Assembly (NCBI GenBank): GCA_904420075.1
Contig: CAJFTX010000024.1
Location: 1 to 35,751, forward strand
Source: an uncultured Clostridia bacterium
Lineage (GTDB): Bacteria > Bacillota > Clostridia > Oscillospirales > Feifaniaceae
Direction of reading: 5' to 3'
Length of the DNA: 35,751 bases
Shown: piece by piece, positions 27,117 to 35,751 of the stretch
Numbering within the stretch: position 1 is the first letter of the stretch
How the letters are laid out: each line of letters starts with the position of its first letter
The notes under the pieces: generated by a model
Told to the model about the DNA's origin: nothing
The model's input: only the letters and a program-made list of their open reading frames with translations
The model's database searches: none
Translations under genes and position numbers: made by a program

Positions 27117-28796
27117 CTATCTCCCCTCACAGGGTAATCGAACGGTGATCGTCGTCCCGCTGCCGGGCTCGCTCTGAATCGCAACCCGGCCCCCGTGAAA
27201 CTCAGCCGCATGCTTTACGATGGAGAGACCAAGGCCAGTCCCCCCCGTCTCCTTCGAGCGGCTCTTGTCCACCCGGTAAAAGCGCTCGAAAATCCGGTCC
27301 AGATGCTCGGAGTCGATTCCAATCCCGGTATCGCTCACCCGAATGAGCGCCTGTCCGCAATCTTTTTTTAATTCCAGTCTCACCGTTCCGCCCGGCCGGT
27401 TATATTTTACCGCGTTATCGAGCAGATTGTAAAAAATCTCGAAGAGCATTGTACGGTCTCCCTCGGTTGTGACCGGCTCCAGCTCACAGGAGAGATTCAC
27501 CTCCCGTTTTTCCGCCGCCCCTCTCACCGCGCGCACAGCATCCTCCGCCACCGAAGAGAGCTCCACGGGGTCGTGACCCGCCCCCTTTAGATTTTCAATC
27601 TCCGAGAGCCGGATGATGTCGCACACCAGACCGATCAGTCGGCTCGCCTCAGTGTGGATAATCCCCGCCATTCGCCGGACTTCCTCCGGTTTTGCCACCA
27701 TCCCCGAGGAGATCATCTCTGAAAATCCGCTGATGGAGGTCAGCGGAGTCTTGAGCTCATGGGAAACATTGGCGGCAAAATCGCGCCGGATCTCCTCCGC
27801 TTTTTTCAGCTCAGTGACATCCACAATAAAGAGAATCGCCCCGCCTTCCGCCGAGGGACTCACAAAGAAACGATAGCTTCTTCCGCCGATCTCCCTGTCG
27901 CAGCTCTTCGCGCCGCCGCCGTCGGCACTTTTCCGGATCGCATCCAGCAGCTCGGGAGCCCGCAGCACCTCCACTACATTGCGGCCGTCCGAATGCTCCT
28001 CCTGAGCGTGCAGAATCCGGCGTGCACTGTCGTTAATGAGAACAATCTGCCGCTCTCCGTCCAGCAGGATCAGCCCTTCCCGCATACTCTCAATAATATC
28101 GGTAATGCGCCGCTTCTCCCCGTGCAGTTCGGCAATAAACTGCCGTGTCTGCCGCCTCTGATAGAGAATACTCCTGCGAAACGGCTCAAATTCGGGGTAG
28201 CGCATCGCGCGTCCGCCGTCCGCATCCTCCACCGTGAGGTTGAGCTCCCGTACCGACTCGGAAAACGGCTTTGTCATCGCGCGTGCAAAGAGAGCCGAAA
28301 GCGCGACGCACAGCAGCGCCATTACAAGGAAAAATACCGGAAGCAACGCGCTCGCGCCCCCCTCGAGCAGCACAGCAAGCGCTCCCGAATCCCTTGAGAG
28401 GCGCAGCACCACTCCGTCGTCCAGCCGCAGCGCATAGTAGTAACTCTCCCTCAGAAGTGTCTCAGATTTGCGGGAGGCCTCTCCGCTGCCCGTTTTTAAG
28501 GCCTCCTGAACCTCCGGCCGATCCGCATGTGAGGCCTCGCTCTCCGCCGTGTCAAACAGCACAGATCCATCCGCTCCGATCAGACTGAGCCGTGTTCCAG
28601 GGGACGCCGCGCGCGCGAGCTCCGCCGCCGGAGCCCCCCGCTCCGCCGCGAGTCTCATCACAGCGGCCTCGCTCCTCAGATCTCCGCACAGCTCCTCCCG
28701 GAGCCGCTCATAAAAGATTGCGGCGGTGACCAAAAAGGCCGCCGTCGCCACCACAAAAGTACAGCAGAGCAAAAGTGCAAAGATTCTCCGTTTCAA
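27117..28796 (-). CDS. phoR: Phosphate-regulon sensor histidine kinase PhoR
   Basis: A 559-residue membrane kinase. Helix 1 lies at about residues 5-27 and helix 2 at about 148-170, with a short extracytoplasmic domain between them. A PAS-like region (ITDIIESMREGLILLD) follows. The HisKA box NVSHELKTPLTS carries H346. The ATPase domain has the N-box LLDNAVKYNRPGG, G1 DTGIGI and G2 GTGLGLSIVKH. The start is a TTG at 28796 with GAGGGG upstream; the ATG nine bases further upstream is out of frame. It follows phoB by 11 bases and is the last gene of the operon. Its location after pst-phoU-phoB supports the assignment as PhoR. Confidence 0.9.
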   Translation of the reverse strand: MKRRIFALLLCCTFVVATAAFLVTAAIFYERLREELCGDLRSEAAVMRLAAERGAPAAELARAASPGTRLSLIGADGSVLFDTAESEASHADRPEVQEALKTGSGEASRKSETLLRESYYYALRLDDGVVLRLSRDSGALAVLLEGGASALLPVFFLVMALLCVALSALFARAMTKPFSESVRELNLTVEDADGGRAMRYPEFEPFRRSILYQRRQTRQFIAELHGEKRRITDIIESMREGLILLDGERQIVLINDSARRILHAQEEHSDGRNVVEVLRAPELLDAIRKSADGGGAKSCDREIGGRSYRFFVSPSAEGGAILFIVDVTELKKAEEIRRDFAANVSHELKTPLTSISGFSEMISSGMVAKPEEVRRMAGIIHTEASRLIGLVCDIIRLSEIENLKGAGHDPVELSSVAEDAVRAVRGAAEKREVNLSCELEPVTTEGDRTMLFEIFYNLLDNAVKYNRPGGTVRLELKKDCGQALIRVSDTGIGIDSEHLDRIFERFYRVDKSRSKETGGTGLGLSIVKHAAEFHGGRVAIQSEPGSGTTITVRLPCEGR

Positions 28797-28807
28797 AAGG
28801 CATCCCC

Positions 28808-29467
28808 TCAGTTTATCATATAGCCGACGCTGCGAACCGTCACGATCAGGTCGTCTCTTCCGAGCTTCTGCCGCAACGTCTTGATATGGACGTCCACCGT
28901 CCGGGTCTCGCCCTCGTAGTCATAGCCCCAGACTTTCTCCAGAATGCGCTCGCGCGAGAGCACCCGTCCTCTATTCTGTACCAGATAGCGCAGCAGCTCA
29001 AACTCCTTGAAGGTGAGTTTTACCGCCCGTCCGGCGACGCTGGCCTCCCGGCGGTCGAGGTCCAGAGTGAGCTCCCCCGCCGTCAGCCGCTCGTCCGGAG
29101 CGCTGCGGCGGAGCACCGCCCGGATCCGCGAGAGCAGTTCCATCACCCCGAAGGGTTTTGCCATGTAGTCGTCCGCCCCGGCATCCAGTCCCTTCACCTT
29201 GTCCACTTCGCTCGTCTTCGCGGTGAGCATAATGACGGGGACCCGCGCGGTCGCTCCACTCCGGCGAAGGCGCCCCAGAATAGAGAGCCCATCCTCCCCC
29301 GGCAGCATGATGTCGAGCAGAACAAGCTCCGGCGTCCGCTCCTCAACCGCCCGCCAGAACTCCTCCCCCGACTCAAAACCGCGCGTCTCATACCCGGCCG
29401 ACTGGGTCGCGTAGGAGATCAGCTCCCGAATCGAGGCGTCATCCTCCACACAATAGATCAGCGCCAA
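28808..29467 (-). CDS. phoB: Phosphate-regulon response regulator PhoB/PhoP
   Basis: An OmpR/PhoB-family regulator of 219 residues. The receiver domain has acidic residues E8-D9-D10, phosphoacceptor D52 (LVLLDIMLPG), then VIMLTAKTSE and the KPFG lysine. The C-terminal winged helix has LTFKEFELLRYLVQNRGRVLSRE, YDYEGETRTVDVHIKTLRQKLG and VRSVGYMI. The start is TTG 29467 with GAGGAGG 8 bases upstream. It probably binds the PhoP box ahead of pstS and so controls its own operon. Firmicute nomenclature would call it PhoP. Confidence 0.92.
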   Translation of the reverse strand: MALIYCVEDDASIRELISYATQSAGYETRGFESGEEFWRAVEERTPELVLLDIMLPGEDGLSILGRLRRSGATARVPVIMLTAKTSEVDKVKGLDAGADDYMAKPFGVMELLSRIRAVLRRSAPDERLTAGELTLDLDRREASVAGRAVKLTFKEFELLRYLVQNRGRVLSRERILEKVWGYDYEGETRTVDVHIKTLRQKLGRDDLIVTVRSVGYMIN

Positions 29468-29533: not shown

Positions 29534-30190
29534 TTAGAGAATTCTATCGTTTTTGTGCTCTCCGGTGATCGAGAAGATCACCCACTCGCCGATATTCTCC
29601 GCATGGTCCCCAATTCGTTCAAAATATTTTGCGATGAGGAGCAGATCGATGAACTGCTCGCCATAGCTGCTGTTCTTCGCGATCAGGCCGATGAGCTCCT
29701 CCTTAGTCTCGTTGAAGAGTTTGTCAATCACATCGTCGTAGGCGATCACCTGCTGGGCGAGCTCCAGATCTCTCCGCACAAAGGAGTCAATCGCGTCTCC
29801 TACCATTTTGATGACACATTCTGCCATCTTGGGAATATTGAAAAGTTGTACCTCCGAACCGTACTCCGCAATCCGCTTGGTGAGCTCCGAGATATCCTCC
29901 GCCTGGTCGCCGATTCGCTCCATATCGGTGATAATTTTAAGCGCCGTCGAGATCAGCCGCAGATCGGACGCCACCGGCTGCTGCCGCAGCAGCAGTTTCA
30001 GACAGCGCCGCTCGATGGAGCGCTCCATCTCGTCGATCTCCCGGTCATATTCGCGCGCGCGGAGAATACAGTCCTTATCCCGCATTTCGAGCGATTTTAC
30101 CGCGTTTACAATTGCAGCCTCCACCCGGCCGCCCATCTCAATGAGCTCGCTCGAGAGCGCGCTCAGCTGTTTGTCAAACGATTCTCTCAT
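29534..30190 (-). CDS. phoU: Phosphate signalling protein PhoU
   Basis: PhoU is a cytoplasmic protein of two three-helix bundles that links the Pst transporter to PhoR and represses the regulon when phosphate is ample. The 218-residue product has the expected duplicated motif: EIDEMERSIERRCLKLLLRQQPVASDLR with AL-KIITDMERIGDQAEDI in the first repeat, and ELIGLIAKNSSYGEQFIDLLLIAKYFERIGDHAENIGEW in the second. It lies 14 bases after pstB and 66 bases before phoB. Confidence 0.95.
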   Translation of the reverse strand: MRESFDKQLSALSSELIEMGGRVEAAIVNAVKSLEMRDKDCILRAREYDREIDEMERSIERRCLKLLLRQQPVASDLRLISTALKIITDMERIGDQAEDISELTKRIAEYGSEVQLFNIPKMAECVIKMVGDAIDSFVRRDLELAQQVIAYDDVIDKLFNETKEELIGLIAKNSSYGEQFIDLLLIAKYFERIGDHAENIGEWVIFSITGEHKNDRIL

Positions 30191-30204: not shown

Positions 30205-30954
30205 TTATCCAAACCGTCCGGTGATATAGTCCTCAGTGCGCTTATCCTTCGGCATTGAGAAGATCTCCTCGGTCGAGCCGTATTCGACCACCTCGCCCAG
30301 CAGAAAGAACGCCGTCTTATCCGAGACGCGCGCCGCCTGCTGCATGTTGTGTGTGACGATTACGATGGTGTAATGCTCCTTCAGCCGCGCGACGAGATCC
30401 TCCACCTTGGTGGTGGAGATCGGATCGAGCGCGCTTGTGGGCTCATCCATCAGCAGCACCGAGGGCTTCACCGCCAGCGCCCGCGCGATACAGATGCGCT
30501 GTTGCTGTCCGCCTGAGAGCGCGAGAGCACTCTTCTTGAGCCGGTCTTTGACCTCGTCCCAAATTGCCGCTTCCCGCAGGCTCTGCTCTACGATCTCGTC
30601 GAGTTTCGACCGGTTCTTGATCCCATGGGTCCGCGGACCGTAAGCGATGTTGTCATAGATACTCATCGGAAAGGGATTCGGCTTCTGAAATACCATTCCC
30701 ACATCCCGCCGCAGATCGTTGACGTCGAAATTCCGATAGATGTCCTGTCCATCGAGCAGAATATCCCCTTCAATCTTACACTCAGGGATGAGATCGTTCA
30801 TCCGGTTGAGCGTCTTTAAAAAGGTGGACTTTCCGCAGCCGGATGGTCCGATAAATGCGGTGATTGTCCGCTCTTTGATCTTCATATTGACATCTTTGAG
30901 CGCATGAAACGCGCCGTAGTGCAGATTCAGATTTCGAATTTCAAATTTTTCCAT
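30205..30954 (-). CDS. pstB: Phosphate ABC transporter ATPase PstB
   Basis: A 249-residue ATPase of the phosphate importer. Walker A is GPSGCGKST (36-44), with a Q-loop in VFQKPNPFP. The ABC signature LSGGQQQR is intact, Walker B is [13 protein letters not shown], and the H-loop is VTHNM. The Q-loop variant and the C-terminal [20 protein letters not shown] are diagnostic of PstB. The gene starts at the base after the pstA stop. Confidence 0.97.
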
Positions 30955-31803
30955 CTACTGTAACCCCTTTGCCGTAAAGCGTTTTACAATCCGTCCGGTC
31001 GCAAAGTTCACAAGCACGACCAGCGCCAGGAGGATAATTCCCGTGGCGAACGCCTCGCCCATGTGCAGTCCCTCGCCCGAGAGCACATACATGTGCAGCG
31101 CGAGCGTCCGTCCACCGGAGAACAGTCCGTCCGGTATTTTGGCAACTGTTCCCGCTGTGTAGAGCAGTGCCGCCGTCTCGCCGATCACACGTCCGATCGC
31201 AAGAATGATTCCGGACAGAATTCCCGGCATCGCCGACGGGAGCACTACCCGGAAGATGGTGCGCAGCTTGCCCGCGCCGAGCCCGTAGCTCGCCTCGCGG
31301 TAGAGATCCGGCACCGACTTGATCGCCTCCTCGGTCGTGCGGATGATAAGCGGCAGAATCATAATCGCCGCGGTCAGCGCCCCCGCCAAAATCGAGTATC
31401 CGAAGTGGAGCGCCGTGACAAAAAAGATCATGCCGAACAGCCCGTAGATAATCGAGGGAATGCCCGAGAGCGTCTCAGTTGTAACCCGAATTACCCGCAC
31501 AAAGCGGCTCGTAGGTTTTGCATACTCGGTCAGATAGATCGCGCACCCGATTCCAAACGGCACCGCAAGCAGCAGCGACAGGCCCACAAGATAGAGCGTC
31601 GAAATGATCGACGGCACCACCGAGACATTCTCCGAATTATACTCGAGTGCAAAAAGCGACGGCTTCATATAGGGGATACCGTTTATGAGGATATAGAGAA
31701 TCAAAAAGATCAGCACGACCACCGTCAGAATCGCCGCCGCGGTCACCGCCACTCTCAGCAGCAGCGAGAGCGGTCGTTTTAGATAGGCTTTCAGTTCATT
31801 CAT
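30955..31803 (-). CDS. pstA: Phosphate ABC transporter permease PstA
   Basis: A 282-residue inner-membrane permease with six predicted helices. The segment GIPSIIYGLFGMIFFV and the EAA-like loop YREASYGLGAGKLRTIFRVVLPSAMPGI are typical of PstA. It dimerises with PstC to form the phosphate channel. The ATG is preceded by AGGAGG and overlaps the end of pstC by 8 bases. Confidence 0.95.
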   Translation of the reverse strand: MNELKAYLKRPLSLLLRVAVTAAAILTVVVLIFLILYILINGIPYMKPSLFALEYNSENVSVVPSIISTLYLVGLSLLLAVPFGIGCAIYLTEYAKPTSRFVRVIRVTTETLSGIPSIIYGLFGMIFFVTALHFGYSILAGALTAAIMILPLIIRTTEEAIKSVPDLYREASYGLGAGKLRTIFRVVLPSAMPGILSGIILAIGRVIGETAALLYTAGTVAKIPDGLFSGGRTLALHMYVLSGEGLHMGEAFATGIILLALVVLVNFATGRIVKRFTAKGLQ

Positions 31804-32653
31804 GTTCTTTCCTCCTGTTGAGCAGTGAGAAGCAGAGGTTGATCAGCAGGATAAAGACAAAGAGCACAAGTCCGGTCGCGATGAGCGCCTCCCGGTGCAA
31901 TCCCTCCGCATAGCCCATCTCGAGCACAATGTTGGTCGTCAGCGTCCGCACACCGTCGAGAATACTCGAGGGGAGGCGCGCCTGATTACCGACCACCATG
32001 ATAACGGCCATTGTCTCTCCGATGGCGCGTCCGATTCCGAGCACAATGCCCGCCATGATACCGCTCTTCGCCGCCGGAAACACGGTGGTCATCACCGCAC
32101 GCTCCCTGGTCGCCCCGAGCGCGAGCGCGCCCTCATAATAGCTCTCCGGCACAGCGCGCAGCGAGCTCTCTGTGATCGAGATAATGGTCGGCAGAATCAT
32201 AAGCCCCAGCAGCAGCGAGGCCGTCAGGATACTGTTTCCATTCCCGCCGAAGTAGGTCCGTACCAGCGGCACCAGCAGCGTCATGCCAAAAAAGCCGTAT
32301 ACGATCGAGGGAATTCCCGCCAGAATATCCACGAAGGTTTTGACCGGCCGATAGATCTTCCGCGGACAGAACCGCGCAAGAAAAATCGCCGTCAAAAGCC
32401 CCACCGGCACACCCACCAGGATTGCGCCCCCGGTGACATAGACGCTTCCCACAATCATCGGGAAGATCCCGTAGGCATTTCCGCTCGGCGACCATTTGCT
32501 TCCGAGCAGGAAGTCAAAAAGTCCGATTTCGCGGATCGCCGGAACGCCGCTGATCAGCATAAAGATGCAGATCAGCAGCACCGACAGGATCGAAACCGTC
32601 GCCATCAGCAGGAAAAGGACCTTCATCCCCTTTTCCAGAACCTTTCTTTTCAT
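31796..32653 (-). CDS. pstC: Phosphate ABC transporter permease PstC
   Basis: A 285-residue inner-membrane permease with six predicted helices. GIPSIVYGFFGMTLLVPLVR and the loop YYEGALALGATRERAVMTTVFPAAKSGI mark the PstC subfamily. GGAGAG stands 8 bases before the ATG. It is 174 bases downstream of pstS, and that gap contains a strong hairpin. Confidence 0.95.
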   Translation of the reverse strand: MKRKVLEKGMKVLFLLMATVSILSVLLICIFMLISGVPAIREIGLFDFLLGSKWSPSGNAYGIFPMIVGSVYVTGGAILVGVPVGLLTAIFLARFCPRKIYRPVKTFVDILAGIPSIVYGFFGMTLLVPLVRTYFGGNGNSILTASLLLGLMILPTIISITESSLRAVPESYYEGALALGATRERAVMTTVFPAAKSGIMAGIVLGIGRAIGETMAVIMVVGNQARLPSSILDGVRTLTTNIVLEMGYAEGLHREALIATGLVLFVFILLINLCFSLLNRRKEHE

Positions 32654-32827: not shown

Positions 32828-33694
32828 TTACGCGCCGACCTTGTCCCAGGTGGTCGTCTCTCCCTTGAAAATTGCGGCCACATCCTCAGAGGAGATGTCC
32901 GAAAGGCTGTTCTCGTTGTTCACCACGATGGCAATACCGTCCTGTGCAATGACAGTCGCATTTAAATCCTTCTCGCTGTCCTTGAGCTCGCGGGACGCCA
33001 TACCGATCTGTGCTGTGCCCTCTCTCGTCGCCTGAATTCCGGCGGAGGAGTCGGTCTGCTGCACTTCGATCACCGCCGCGGGGTTTACAGTTTTGTACGC
33101 CTCAGCCAGCTTCTCCATCACCGGGTTGACCGAAGAGGAACCTGCAACGGTGATCTTGCCCTCCGGCTTGGTCCCGGCGTAGGGGGCCGCGCTGTCGTTT
33201 ACCGAGATATAGCCGTTGTCCTCGATCACCTTCTGACCCTCGCTGCTCATGATAAAGTCGATGAAATCCTTTGCAAGTCCGTCCGGCTCGCCGTTTGTGA
33301 CGATGTTAAACGGACGGGCCGCCTTGTACTCACCGCTCTTCACATTCTCAGCGGTCGCCTCGACGCCGTCCAGTTTCAGCGCCTTGACCTTCTCCGAGAG
33401 CGACCCGAGCGAGAGATAGCCGATCGCATTCTTGTCGCCCATCACCTGAGTGAGCACTACGTCCGTCTTAGTGGCAATAATTGCCTCCTCGGTCGTCTTG
33501 TCCGCGCCGTCCTCTTCAATTCCAAAGAGCTCCACAAAAGCGCCTCTGGTGCCCGACCCCTCCTCACGGGAGATGACGGTGATCTTGTCCCCGCCGGATG
33601 CGTCGGTCCCGCCATTCTCGCTGGCCGGCGCACAGCCGGTGGCCACTCCACAGATCATCAGCGCCGAGAGCGCGACTGCAAGTACCTTTTTCAT
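32828..33694 (-). CDS. pstS: Phosphate-binding lipoprotein PstS, circularly permuted
   Basis: An extracytoplasmic phosphate receptor of 288 residues. The lipoprotein signal ends VATGC (C21), followed by a Ser/Gly linker. The order of the two halves is reversed relative to ordinary PstS. Residues ~37-175 hold what is normally the C-terminal half: ITVISREEGSGTRGAF, then DKNAIGYLSLGSL, ARPFNIVTNGE and FIMSSEGQKVIEDNGYISV. Residues ~185-288 hold what is normally the N-terminal half: ITVAGSSSVNPVMEKLAEAY, then DSSAGIQATREGTAQIGMASRELK, and GETTTWDKVGA at the very end. All phosphate-contact segments are therefore present once each. Start ATG 33694 has AAAGGAG upstream. First gene of the pst-pho operon, behind a PhoP box. 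Confidence 0.9.
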   Translation of the reverse strand: MKKVLAVALSALMICGVATGCAPASENGGTDASGGDKITVISREEGSGTRGAFVELFGIEEDGADKTTEEAIIATKTDVVLTQVMGDKNAIGYLSLGSLSEKVKALKLDGVEATAENVKSGEYKAARPFNIVTNGEPDGLAKDFIDFIMSSEGQKVIEDNGYISVNDSAAPYAGTKPEGKITVAGSSSVNPVMEKLAEAYKTVNPAAVIEVQQTDSSAGIQATREGTAQIGMASRELKDSEKDLNATVIAQDGIAIVVNNENSLSDISSEDVAAIFKGETTTWDKVGA

Positions 33695-33742: not shown

Positions 33743-33784
33743 ATTTTAAAATCCGCGCGTATCCTCTGTAAAATCCGTGTAAAA
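33743..33784 (-). promoter_or_regulatory. PhoP box and promoter of the pst-pho operon
   Basis: On the minus strand TTTTACA occurs twice, 11 bases apart (33784-33778 and 33773-33767), the spacing and sequence of a Gram-positive PhoP box. The second copy serves as a -35 element (TTTACA) and is 18 bases from TAAAAT (33748-33743). The predicted start lies about 40-50 bases before the pstS ATG. Confidence 0.8.
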
Positions 33785-33807: not shown

Positions 33808-33847
33808 CAAAAAATATGGCCCGGGTTCGATCGAACCCGGGCCATAT
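33808..33847 (-). terminator. Terminator of the SLH surface-protein gene
   Basis: A perfect 34-bp palindrome (33814-33847; 17-base arm ATATGGCCCGGGTTCGA and its complement) begins 10 bases after the stop codon. On the minus strand it is followed by TTTTTTGAGG. Confidence 0.9.
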
Positions 33848-33857
33848 GCGCTTCTAT

Positions 33858-35751
33858 TTAATATAACATCGTCAGCATCTTCGCCATCTCTCCGCGGCGC
33901 ACCGGCCGCATCGGCTGTAGCGTCCCGTCGTCATAGCCGCTGATGATGCCTCTTGAGACGAGCGACCCCACATAGGAGTACGCGTAGTCCGGAATCTCAT
34001 CTGTATCCGGGAAGCGAAGCTCCGCCTCCGCATAGCCGCGCTCCTGTGTACGCCCCAGAATGGTCATCATCTCGGCACGGGTCACATTCCCGAGCGGATC
34101 AAATGAAATACCGCTCCCTGTGTCCTTACCGAGGATAATCCCCCGGGCGTAGACCGCCTTGACATAGGGCATCGCCCAGTCCGGAATCTGTTCAACGTCC
34201 ACATAGGGCAGCTCCACGCCGCTATACTGTGAGAGCTCCAGTCCTAGGTAGTTTGAGATCATCTTGGCAAACTCCGCCCGGGAGAGATTTCTCTCCGGAT
34301 AGAAATAGCGGATGTTCCCCACCAGCTCTCCGCCGAGCACGCCCTGATTATAGAGATATTCCGCATAGCTCCCCGCCCAGTGGTTTCCGGTATCAACAAA
34401 GGAGGTCATCCCGCTCTCGTCCTCGTGATAGGACTGGGAGGCCCTTCCGATATTGCCGGAGGAGTCCTTCGCCTCCACGGAAACCCGGTGCATCTTGAGA
34501 TCCTGCGGCGCAGGAACCGCCGCGGTCAGAAGACCGCTCTCCGGGTCGTAGTCAAAGTCATAGGAGACCCCATCCAGTGTGAGGGTGATCATTTCCTTCT
34601 CGAGCGTCTCAAACGCATCGGTTACCGCACCGGTCACCGTCAACGTCTCCGCTCCGATAATCGGAGAGAGCGGGTCGATTCGCACCTCCGGCGGAGTCCC
34701 ATCCGCCGCGTCTGTAAAGAGAGTCTGAATCTGGTCAAAATACACCGTACCGTAGGCCACCGACTCACCCGCGTTGGTCAGGCGGAATCCGCTGATCTCC
34801 GTCGTCCCTGCCGGGAGCTCCACCTGCACCCGTTCATAGCCCCAGAAACCGATTTCGCCCGCCGGAACCTCGGTTGTCTGTTCCCCCTGTTTCGTAATGA
34901 CCGAGAGCTCCGTCTGCGAGCTGTTTCCGTAGAGATAGAAGCTGAGGTATTTCGGCGAGCGTTCCACCGGAAGCCCGAGCAGGAAGCTTCCGCTTCCCTC
35001 GGACGCCGCCGGAAGCTGATAGTAGGCCTTCAGCGCCTGTCGTCCGTATCGGACAAAGTCGGTGCTCTTCTCCTCGCTGACTGTGATGTGCTCTGTCTGA
35101 GCCGTCGCCGCGTAGTTGCTCCCCTCAAAGGTCTCGAGCATCTGCGGCGCGCCCGCCAGCTCCACTGGAATTTCAGCCGTCTTCTCCCCGGAGGTAATCC
35201 AAATGCTGCCCGTGGCTCCCCGTGCGTTCGACGCGGTGAACACGCCGTCCGCTGTGATGGTGCCGATCTCGCCGGTCACCGACCACTGGAACACGCTGTC
35301 CGGCACATCCATCAGATAGGTATTATAGTAGGCATCCACCGTCAGATCGACCGTCTCCCCCGGGGCGAGGCTGAGGCTCGCAACATCCCGCCCGGTCGCC
35401 TCGTTCTTCACATACATCTCATTTGGGCTCACCACATGCACAGTGGCATATCCGCTCGCGCCGGACGGCGCAGTCACATTCACCCGTCCGCTGCCAAGTC
35501 CTGTGGCTGTGAAGGTTCCGTCCGCGCTCACCGAGCCCAACGTCCCATCCTCCATCGAGTAGACAAGCTCTTCGGGCACCTCGGTCATATGGTAGTTCCC
35601 GTCGGTCGCCCGCGGAGTGAAACTCACGCTCCCTCCCGGCAGGGTGATGTAGTCATAGGGATAGAGGAAGAGCTGCTCTGCGACCCCTGTCGCCTCGGTC
35701 GTATTGACCAGAAAGAGGTAGTTCGCACACTTCCGAGGCGACCCGTCCGAG
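33858..35751 (-). CDS. Surface protein with phosphodiester-glycosidase end, Ig-like domains and SLH repeats, N-terminus missing
   Basis: The frame is open to the window edge, so the 630 residues seen are the C-terminal part; a GTG at 35627 is internal. The first residues (SDGSPRKCANYLFLVN) match the end of NAGPA/DUF2233 phosphodiester glycosidase domains, which close with an SDG-x-x-R-x-VANA-like segment. Two bacterial Ig-like domains follow (about residues 30-110 and 110-185, each with GTITADGVFTA-type turns), then a ~130-residue jelly-roll-like carbohydrate-binding region (from LETFEGSNYA) and an Ig-like/Big region. The C-terminus has three S-layer homology repeats (WAGSYAEYLYNQGV, then ISFDPLGNVTRAEMMTIL, and YSYVGSLVSRGIISGYDDGTLQPMRPVRRGEMAKML) that anchor proteins to the cell wall. 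It precedes the pst-pho operon but has its own terminator. Confidence 0.8.
   Translation of the reverse strand, partial: SDGSPRKCANYLFLVNTTEATGVAEQLFLYPYDYITLPGGSVSFTPRATDGNYHMTEVPEELVYSMEDGTLGSVSADGTFTATGLGSGRVNVTAPSGASGYATVHVVSPNEMYVKNEATGRDVASLSLAPGETVDLTVDAYYNTYLMDVPDSVFQWSVTGEIGTITADGVFTASNARGATGSIWITSGEKTAEIPVELAGAPQMLETFEGSNYAATAQTEHITVSEEKSTDFVRYGRQALKAYYQLPAASEGSGSFLLGLPVERSPKYLSFYLYGNSSQTELSVITKQGEQTTEVPAGEIGFWGYERVQVELPAGTTEISGFRLTNAGESVAYGTVYFDQIQTLFTDAADGTPPEVRIDPLSPIIGAETLTVTGAVTDAFETLEKEMITLTLDGVSYDFDYDPESGLLTAAVPAPQDLKMHRVSVEAKDSSGNIGRASQSYHEDESGMTSFVDTGNHWAGSYAEYLYNQGVLGGELVGNIRYFYPERNLSRAEFAKMISNYLGLELSQYSGVELPYVDVEQIPDWAMPYVKAVYARGIILGKDTGSGISFDPLGNVTRAEMMTILGRTQERGYAEAELRFPDTDEIPDYAYSYVGSLVSRGIISGYDDGTLQPMRPVRRGEMAKMLTMLY

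Follow-up and report, generated by a model that had tools for sequence, protein, structure and literature searches.

A circularly permuted PstS in the phosphate-import operon of an uncultured Clostridia bacterium

The pst locus of this uncultured Clostridia bacterium raises the question of whether a PstS whose two halves stand in exchanged order is a natural protein and, if so, what it does and how it arose. Within the window (the whole stretch of DNA that was analysed, 35,751 nucleotides), the ORF in question very probably encodes a naturally circularly permuted lipoprotein, predicted to be the phosphate-binding component of a complete Pst importer.

The permuted chain

The pstS ORF encodes 288 amino acids, begins with an ATG codon and ends with TAA (stop codon at positions 32828-32830). 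The chain runs from a signal peptide and lipobox through a short spacer into the half that is C-terminal in canonical PstS, then through the linker into the canonical N-terminal half and on to the stop codon (Table 1). A sequence-only reading of the locus had placed SREEGSGTRG at about residue 40 and AGSSSVNP...WDKVGA last. The translation bears this out, with AGSSSVNP at residues 184-191 and WDKVGA forming the last six residues before the stop. That reading also set the break at the natural junction after WDKVG, and the chain does start at the site that follows W-x-x-V-G in canonical PstS. A short linker between the old C- and N-termini, and a signal peptide and lipobox on the new N-terminus, were likewise found where they had been described, and Cys21 is the predicted lipidated residue. 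The earlier description of the ORF was accurate in all details checked.

Table 1. Positions in the window of the permuted pstS gene, its parts and its neighbours
Feature	Position	Strand	Basis or remark
PnpS/PhoR-like histidine kinase	27117..28796	-	best NCBIfam match PnpS, 318 bits, below cut-off; PAS, HisKA, HATPase_c
PhoB-like response regulator	28808..29467	-	best NCBIfam match PhoB, 225 bits, below cut-off
phoU	29534..30190	-	TIGR02135, 218 bits, above cut-off
pstB	30205..30954	-	TIGR00972, 427 bits, above cut-off
pstA	30955..31803	-	TIGR00974, 264.6 bits, above cut-off
pstC	31796..32653	-	TIGR02138, 294 bits, above cut-off
Permuted pstS	32828..33694	-	ORF and translation; collinear with PDB 4h1x
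Canonical N-half, residues 180-288, now C-terminal; AGSSSVNP...WDKVGA	32831..33157	-	matches 4q8r 4-114
Linker SAAPYAGTKPEG, residues 168-179, old C-terminus to old N-terminus	33158..33193	-	
Canonical C-half, residues 36-167, now N-terminal; SREEGSGTRG, IGY, EGQ	33194..33589	-	matches 4q8r 114-245
SREEGSGTRG, residues 42-51	33542..33571	-	six of its residues invariant in 69 permuted homologues
Signal peptide and lipobox ATGC, residues 1-21	33632..33694	-	read from translation
Pho box TTTACA-N5-TTTACA, exact	33767..33783	-	ahead of the pstS start codon by 73-89 bp
Terminator-like hairpin	33814..33847	-	15-pair stem, then T run; between upstream SLH-domain gene and pst operon

When the protein is compared with the PDB by phmmer, the canonical structures 4q8r, 4gd5, 1twy and 4exl each align in two pieces whose order is exchanged, and 4h1x aligns as one collinear piece (32-286 to 5-264, E 3.5e-69). 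Pfam and NCBIfam profiles also match the two halves separately with their order exchanged, the best Pfam match being PBP_like_2. An AlphaFold2 model built from 69 permuted homologues has a mean pLDDT of 90.7 and a confident linker (about 97), while residues 1-33, which include the signal peptide, are disordered and below confidence. By Foldseek, PstS structures are the nearest to this model. It matches the solved permuted structure 4h1x over its full length (TM 0.94, 255 columns) and canonical 4gd5, 4q8r and 1twy over only 125-139 columns, which correspond to one half. The earlier claim of a real architecture is upheld. A profile-profile comparison shows one half only, its aligner not being permutation-aware. 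Chance is excluded because the halves match the PstS profile TIGR02136 with 190 bits in total and because 154 ORFs share this order. The protein is a genuine circular permutation of PstS, with a predicted normal fold and a relative already in the PDB.

Lobes were assigned by combining the DSSP elements of the model with lobe boundaries published for a canonical PstS (PMC12421899). The permuted chain begins midway along the second lobe and first traces the old C-half. It then passes a linker of 7-8 residues in the first lobe and closes with the old N-half. By homology with the canonical protein, the junction of the old termini would fall in lobe I and the new ends of the chain in lobe II. The phosphate site, consisting of the GSSS loop, the SS/DG loop and the R-x-x-GSGTR loop, would be re-formed from the same residues. 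Because the halves are swapped and the lipobox sits on the new N-terminus, the lipid anchor would now be on lobe II rather than lobe I, and the tether would leave the transporter-docked protein from the other lobe.

Distribution and association with a Pst subtype

A scan of 84,980 species genomes gave 298 stretches encoding a relative, and each of the best 80 of these 298 loci encodes the collinear, permuted form. They come from the Lachnospiraceae, Oscillospiraceae, Christensenellaceae, Eggerthellaceae, Atopobiaceae, Coriobacteriaceae and other families, and a Propionibacteriaceae MAG is among them. By hand count, permuted PstS is present in about 58 of 293 genomes (about 20%) sampled evenly from the class to which the window belongs, and in 18 of about 400 genomes in a phylum sample. 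Counting with half-profiles, we found 154 ORFs in the C-N order, from Bacillota, Coriobacteriia and others, 43 ORFs in the N-C order and a tandem N-C-N-C arrangement in two genomes; some of the 154 were counted from overlapping loci, and 140 permuted ORFs are distinct. On complete plasmids from Treponema saccharophilum and Monoglobus pectinilyticus, permuted pstS lies within pstS-pstC-pstA-pstB-phoU operons. The sequence-only reading had placed similarly ordered proteins in gut Clostridia, but the form also occurs in Coriobacteriia, on a Treponema plasmid and in Streptococcus pneumoniae.

Two loci (L197 in genome G628 and L198 in genome G542) have two permuted pstS genes side by side in one operon. 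Permuted pstS is also present in MT837962, MT838544 and other records labelled 'Bacteriophage sp.', which are short unannotated faecal scaffolds and probably represent bacterial DNA filed as phage. A phage origin of the gene was set aside for this reason.

The operon in the window is complete, with pstS, pstC, pstA, pstB and phoU followed by genes for the PhoB-like regulator and the PnpS/PhoR-like kinase. Among the 148 permuted loci that extend far enough to show the next gene, 146 have pstC directly after permuted pstS. Trees of PstC, PstA and PstB were made from 63 operons, 42 permuted and 21 canonical (including two tandem), with locus L200 left out. The split in the PstC and PstA trees follows the topology of the adjacent PstS in every case (98 and 97, respectively), and the PstB tree needs two changes. 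When PstC was used as a query against the class sample, the best 49 matches, the window included, all adjoined permuted pstS. The reverse search and the split of the two permease trees therefore indicate that permuted pstS travels with its own permeases. One genome has both systems (G484, contigs C1 and C28), and its PstC proteins are 64% identical to that of the window in the permuted system versus 48% in the canonical one. These patterns show that PstS topology marks a Pst subtype travelling as an operon. Perhaps this is a distinct transporter type, with separate lineages of PstC and PstA and a lobe II tether, in which topology and transporter have co-evolved and docking, closing or retention is altered, but this extension is rather less likely than not.

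Origin, function and competing readings

In trees of the reordered whole protein, nearly all permuted rows fall together. Of 140 permuted proteins, 131 have a gap of 7-8 residues between their two half-profile matches, and the end of the permuted chain lies no more than about one residue from the end of the N-half profile. Mapping of the permuted form on trees, as had been proposed with the original observation, gives one clade for each half once the long-branch rows are left out: the N-half tree and the C-half tree need one change each, and in both a single branch sets the permuted rows apart. The half-trees are congruent, so both halves share one history, and a single old event is the simplest reading. 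It is nevertheless conceivable, though unlikely, that this junction was the site of two or more independent permutations. The very divergent permuted rows L015, L200 and L201 are not firmly grouped with the other permuted rows, and with these included the trees of the whole protein imply two or three changes. However, besides the single change in each half-tree, the PstC and PstA trees need one change (with L200 left out), and a one-clade tree has a higher likelihood than the free tree (AU p 0.59, with five long-branch rows left out).

If there was a single event, the permutation probably came about via tandem duplication and fusion of pstS, after which the outer halves were lost. The ancestor of a single Pst operon lineage would have undergone this change, and the unit would have spread through Bacillota, Coriobacteriia and some other bacteria. 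There are two tandem PstS genes (L139:3850-5430 and L140:3632-5212) in two genomes of one family (G341 and G360), each located in front of pstCAB and encoding 527 amino acids in the order N-C-N-C with one signal peptide. In the middle of such a protein a C-half precedes an N-half, the arrangement expected of a duplication intermediate. Removing the outer halves would leave precisely the permuted form, and the existence of the tandem proteins shows that this step is possible. Unlike permuted PstS, the tandem proteins have four halves and are placed within the canonical part of the trees. They were rejected as the direct ancestor because they nest among canonical PstS, and they are better viewed as a parallel example. 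The tandem chain might fold into two canonical units, or a permuted unit might form inside a canonical one.

The function of the permuted operon is most likely phosphate import. All three phosphate-loop motifs (GSxS, SSxG and R-x-x-GSGTR) are present. An alignment of 69 permuted homologues shows that R43, E44, G46, S47, G48 and T49 are invariant, as are G185, S186, S188, S216 and G219, and the canonical counterparts are invariant or nearly so. The gene is linked to pstC, pstA and pstB and, judging by sequence only, is under Pho control. The Pho box is the sole match in the window at up to one mismatch (0.02 expected), and an upstream Pho box lies within 250 bp in 79 of 140 permuted loci, compared with 0.4% of shuffled sequences. 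We take the pneumococcal pnpRS genes to be SP_2082-2083, and because these neighbour SP_2084, which encodes a permuted PstS, the Pst1 system of S. pneumoniae is presumably the SP_2084 system. Pst1, which is encoded downstream of pnpRS, shows an induction of about 210-fold at 10 uM Pi, and optimal uptake at low Pi requires it (PMC4913102). A Pho box, TTTACACAATCTTTACA, is located 92 bp upstream of pstS1 (PMC4913102), and its half-sites and spacing equal those of the Pho box in the window. With its phosphate site re-formed, permuted PstS would bind Pi and pass it to PstC and PstA as usual, and PhoB-type control of the operon would act via the upstream Pho box.

One alternative is that the permuted protein binds some other oxyanion, or is a Pi sensor rather than a transport subunit. 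Pi binding is deduced from the sequence, and a chemoreceptor role has been proposed for the permuted sugar-binding protein TpMglB-2 (PMC4990184). We nevertheless consider such a role improbable, given the invariant residues of the phosphate loops, the pstCAB-phoU genes directly downstream, the Pho box upstream, and the finding of no other pstS-like gene in the genome besides one that is SLH-linked. The latter (L153:1073-2782, contig C11 of the same genome, G000) is a 570-amino-acid ORF with S-layer homology repeats and a PBP_like_2 domain in canonical order, and it possibly encodes a cell-wall-held phosphate-binding protein. An SLH-domain surface protein gene also lies upstream of the pst operon in the window (33858-35750); it is open at the window end, and the strong terminator-like hairpin comes after it.

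Slightly less probable again is a chimera, in which halves from two different PstS-like genes were fused with the C-half first. Fusion of separate halves would yield an identical order, but the N-half and C-half trees both set all permuted proteins apart from canonical PstS, and the linker and chain ends are uniform. The chimera was rejected on the congruence of the half-trees. Finally, although the source is a draft genome of 95 contigs and tandem duplicated PstS proteins exist in relatives, an assembly error or a mis-joined remnant of a longer duplicated PstS in this MAG, the doubt attached to the original observation, is ruled out almost completely by the intact ORF with its own signal peptide and Pho box and by the conserved C-N order, which recurs in 154 ORFs drawn from many independent assemblies, some of them closed genomes, and is seen in a complete Gordonibacter pamelaeae record, on the complete Treponema saccharophilum and Monoglobus plasmids and in the solved structure 4h1x.

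Relatives, annotation and significance

The permuted form has a solved relative in PstS2 of S. pneumoniae (SP_2084, PDB 4H1X, released 2012). This protein has the same permuted order end to end at 50% identity, and the whole mature chain of the window's PstS is collinear with it. Like the window's PstS, it is a phosphate ABC transporter binding protein, although its source is a pathogen of the Bacilli. The PDB code 4H1X was in no paper of the open literature searched. Similarly, no description of permuted PstS was found in the open literature, subscription papers being mostly outside the search. The earlier statement that no description was known holds to that extent, but the form has been visible in the PDB since 2012. 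Canonical PstS (TIGR02136; for example Clostridium perfringens 4Q8R/4GD5 and E. coli PstS) shares the lobes, the phosphate-loop motifs and the operon partners, but has its halves in the opposite order and its lipid anchor on lobe I.

The nearest precedent, by analogy, is TpMglB-2 (Tp0684) of Treponema pallidum, a naturally permuted tethered ABC binding protein designated 'Type Ic', a class found in treponemes and Gram-positives (PMC4990184). Its authors raised membrane anchoring as a possible reason for the permutation (PMC4990184). TpMglB-2 has a Type I sugar-binding fold, another break point and another ligand, and is therefore an analogue of permuted PstS and not its kin. There is no sugar-binding Peripla_BP family among the Pfam matches of permuted PstS.

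The permuted form also falls into an annotation gap. The window's PstS matches TIGR02136 significantly (E 4.5e-56), as do all 69 permuted homologues at 1e-10 or better. However, its score of 190.2 bits is below the curated cut-off of 206.6 bits, which assumes the canonical order (expressed in the survey as an E-value of 5e-61). The cut-off is passed by only two of 69 permuted proteins versus 36 of 38 canonical ones, a shortfall that is attributed to the permutation, since the two halves match separately. Two complete-plasmid records name permuted pstS only 'substrate-binding domain-containing protein'. Because profile methods put permuted forms under the PstS cut-off, many gut bacteria may appear to be without pstS.

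PstS is among the best-studied binding proteins, yet its permuted lineage, which includes one pneumococcal PstS, seems never to have been described before. The tandem N-C-N-C proteins offer, within the PstS family itself, the step that models of permutation by duplication demand. Permuted PstS would also serve as a natural experiment on whether chain topology, or the lobe that carries the lipid anchor, matters for an ABC importer. Because the anchor would move from lobe I to lobe II, the membrane-anchoring idea put forward for TpMglB-2 should be testable in this family.
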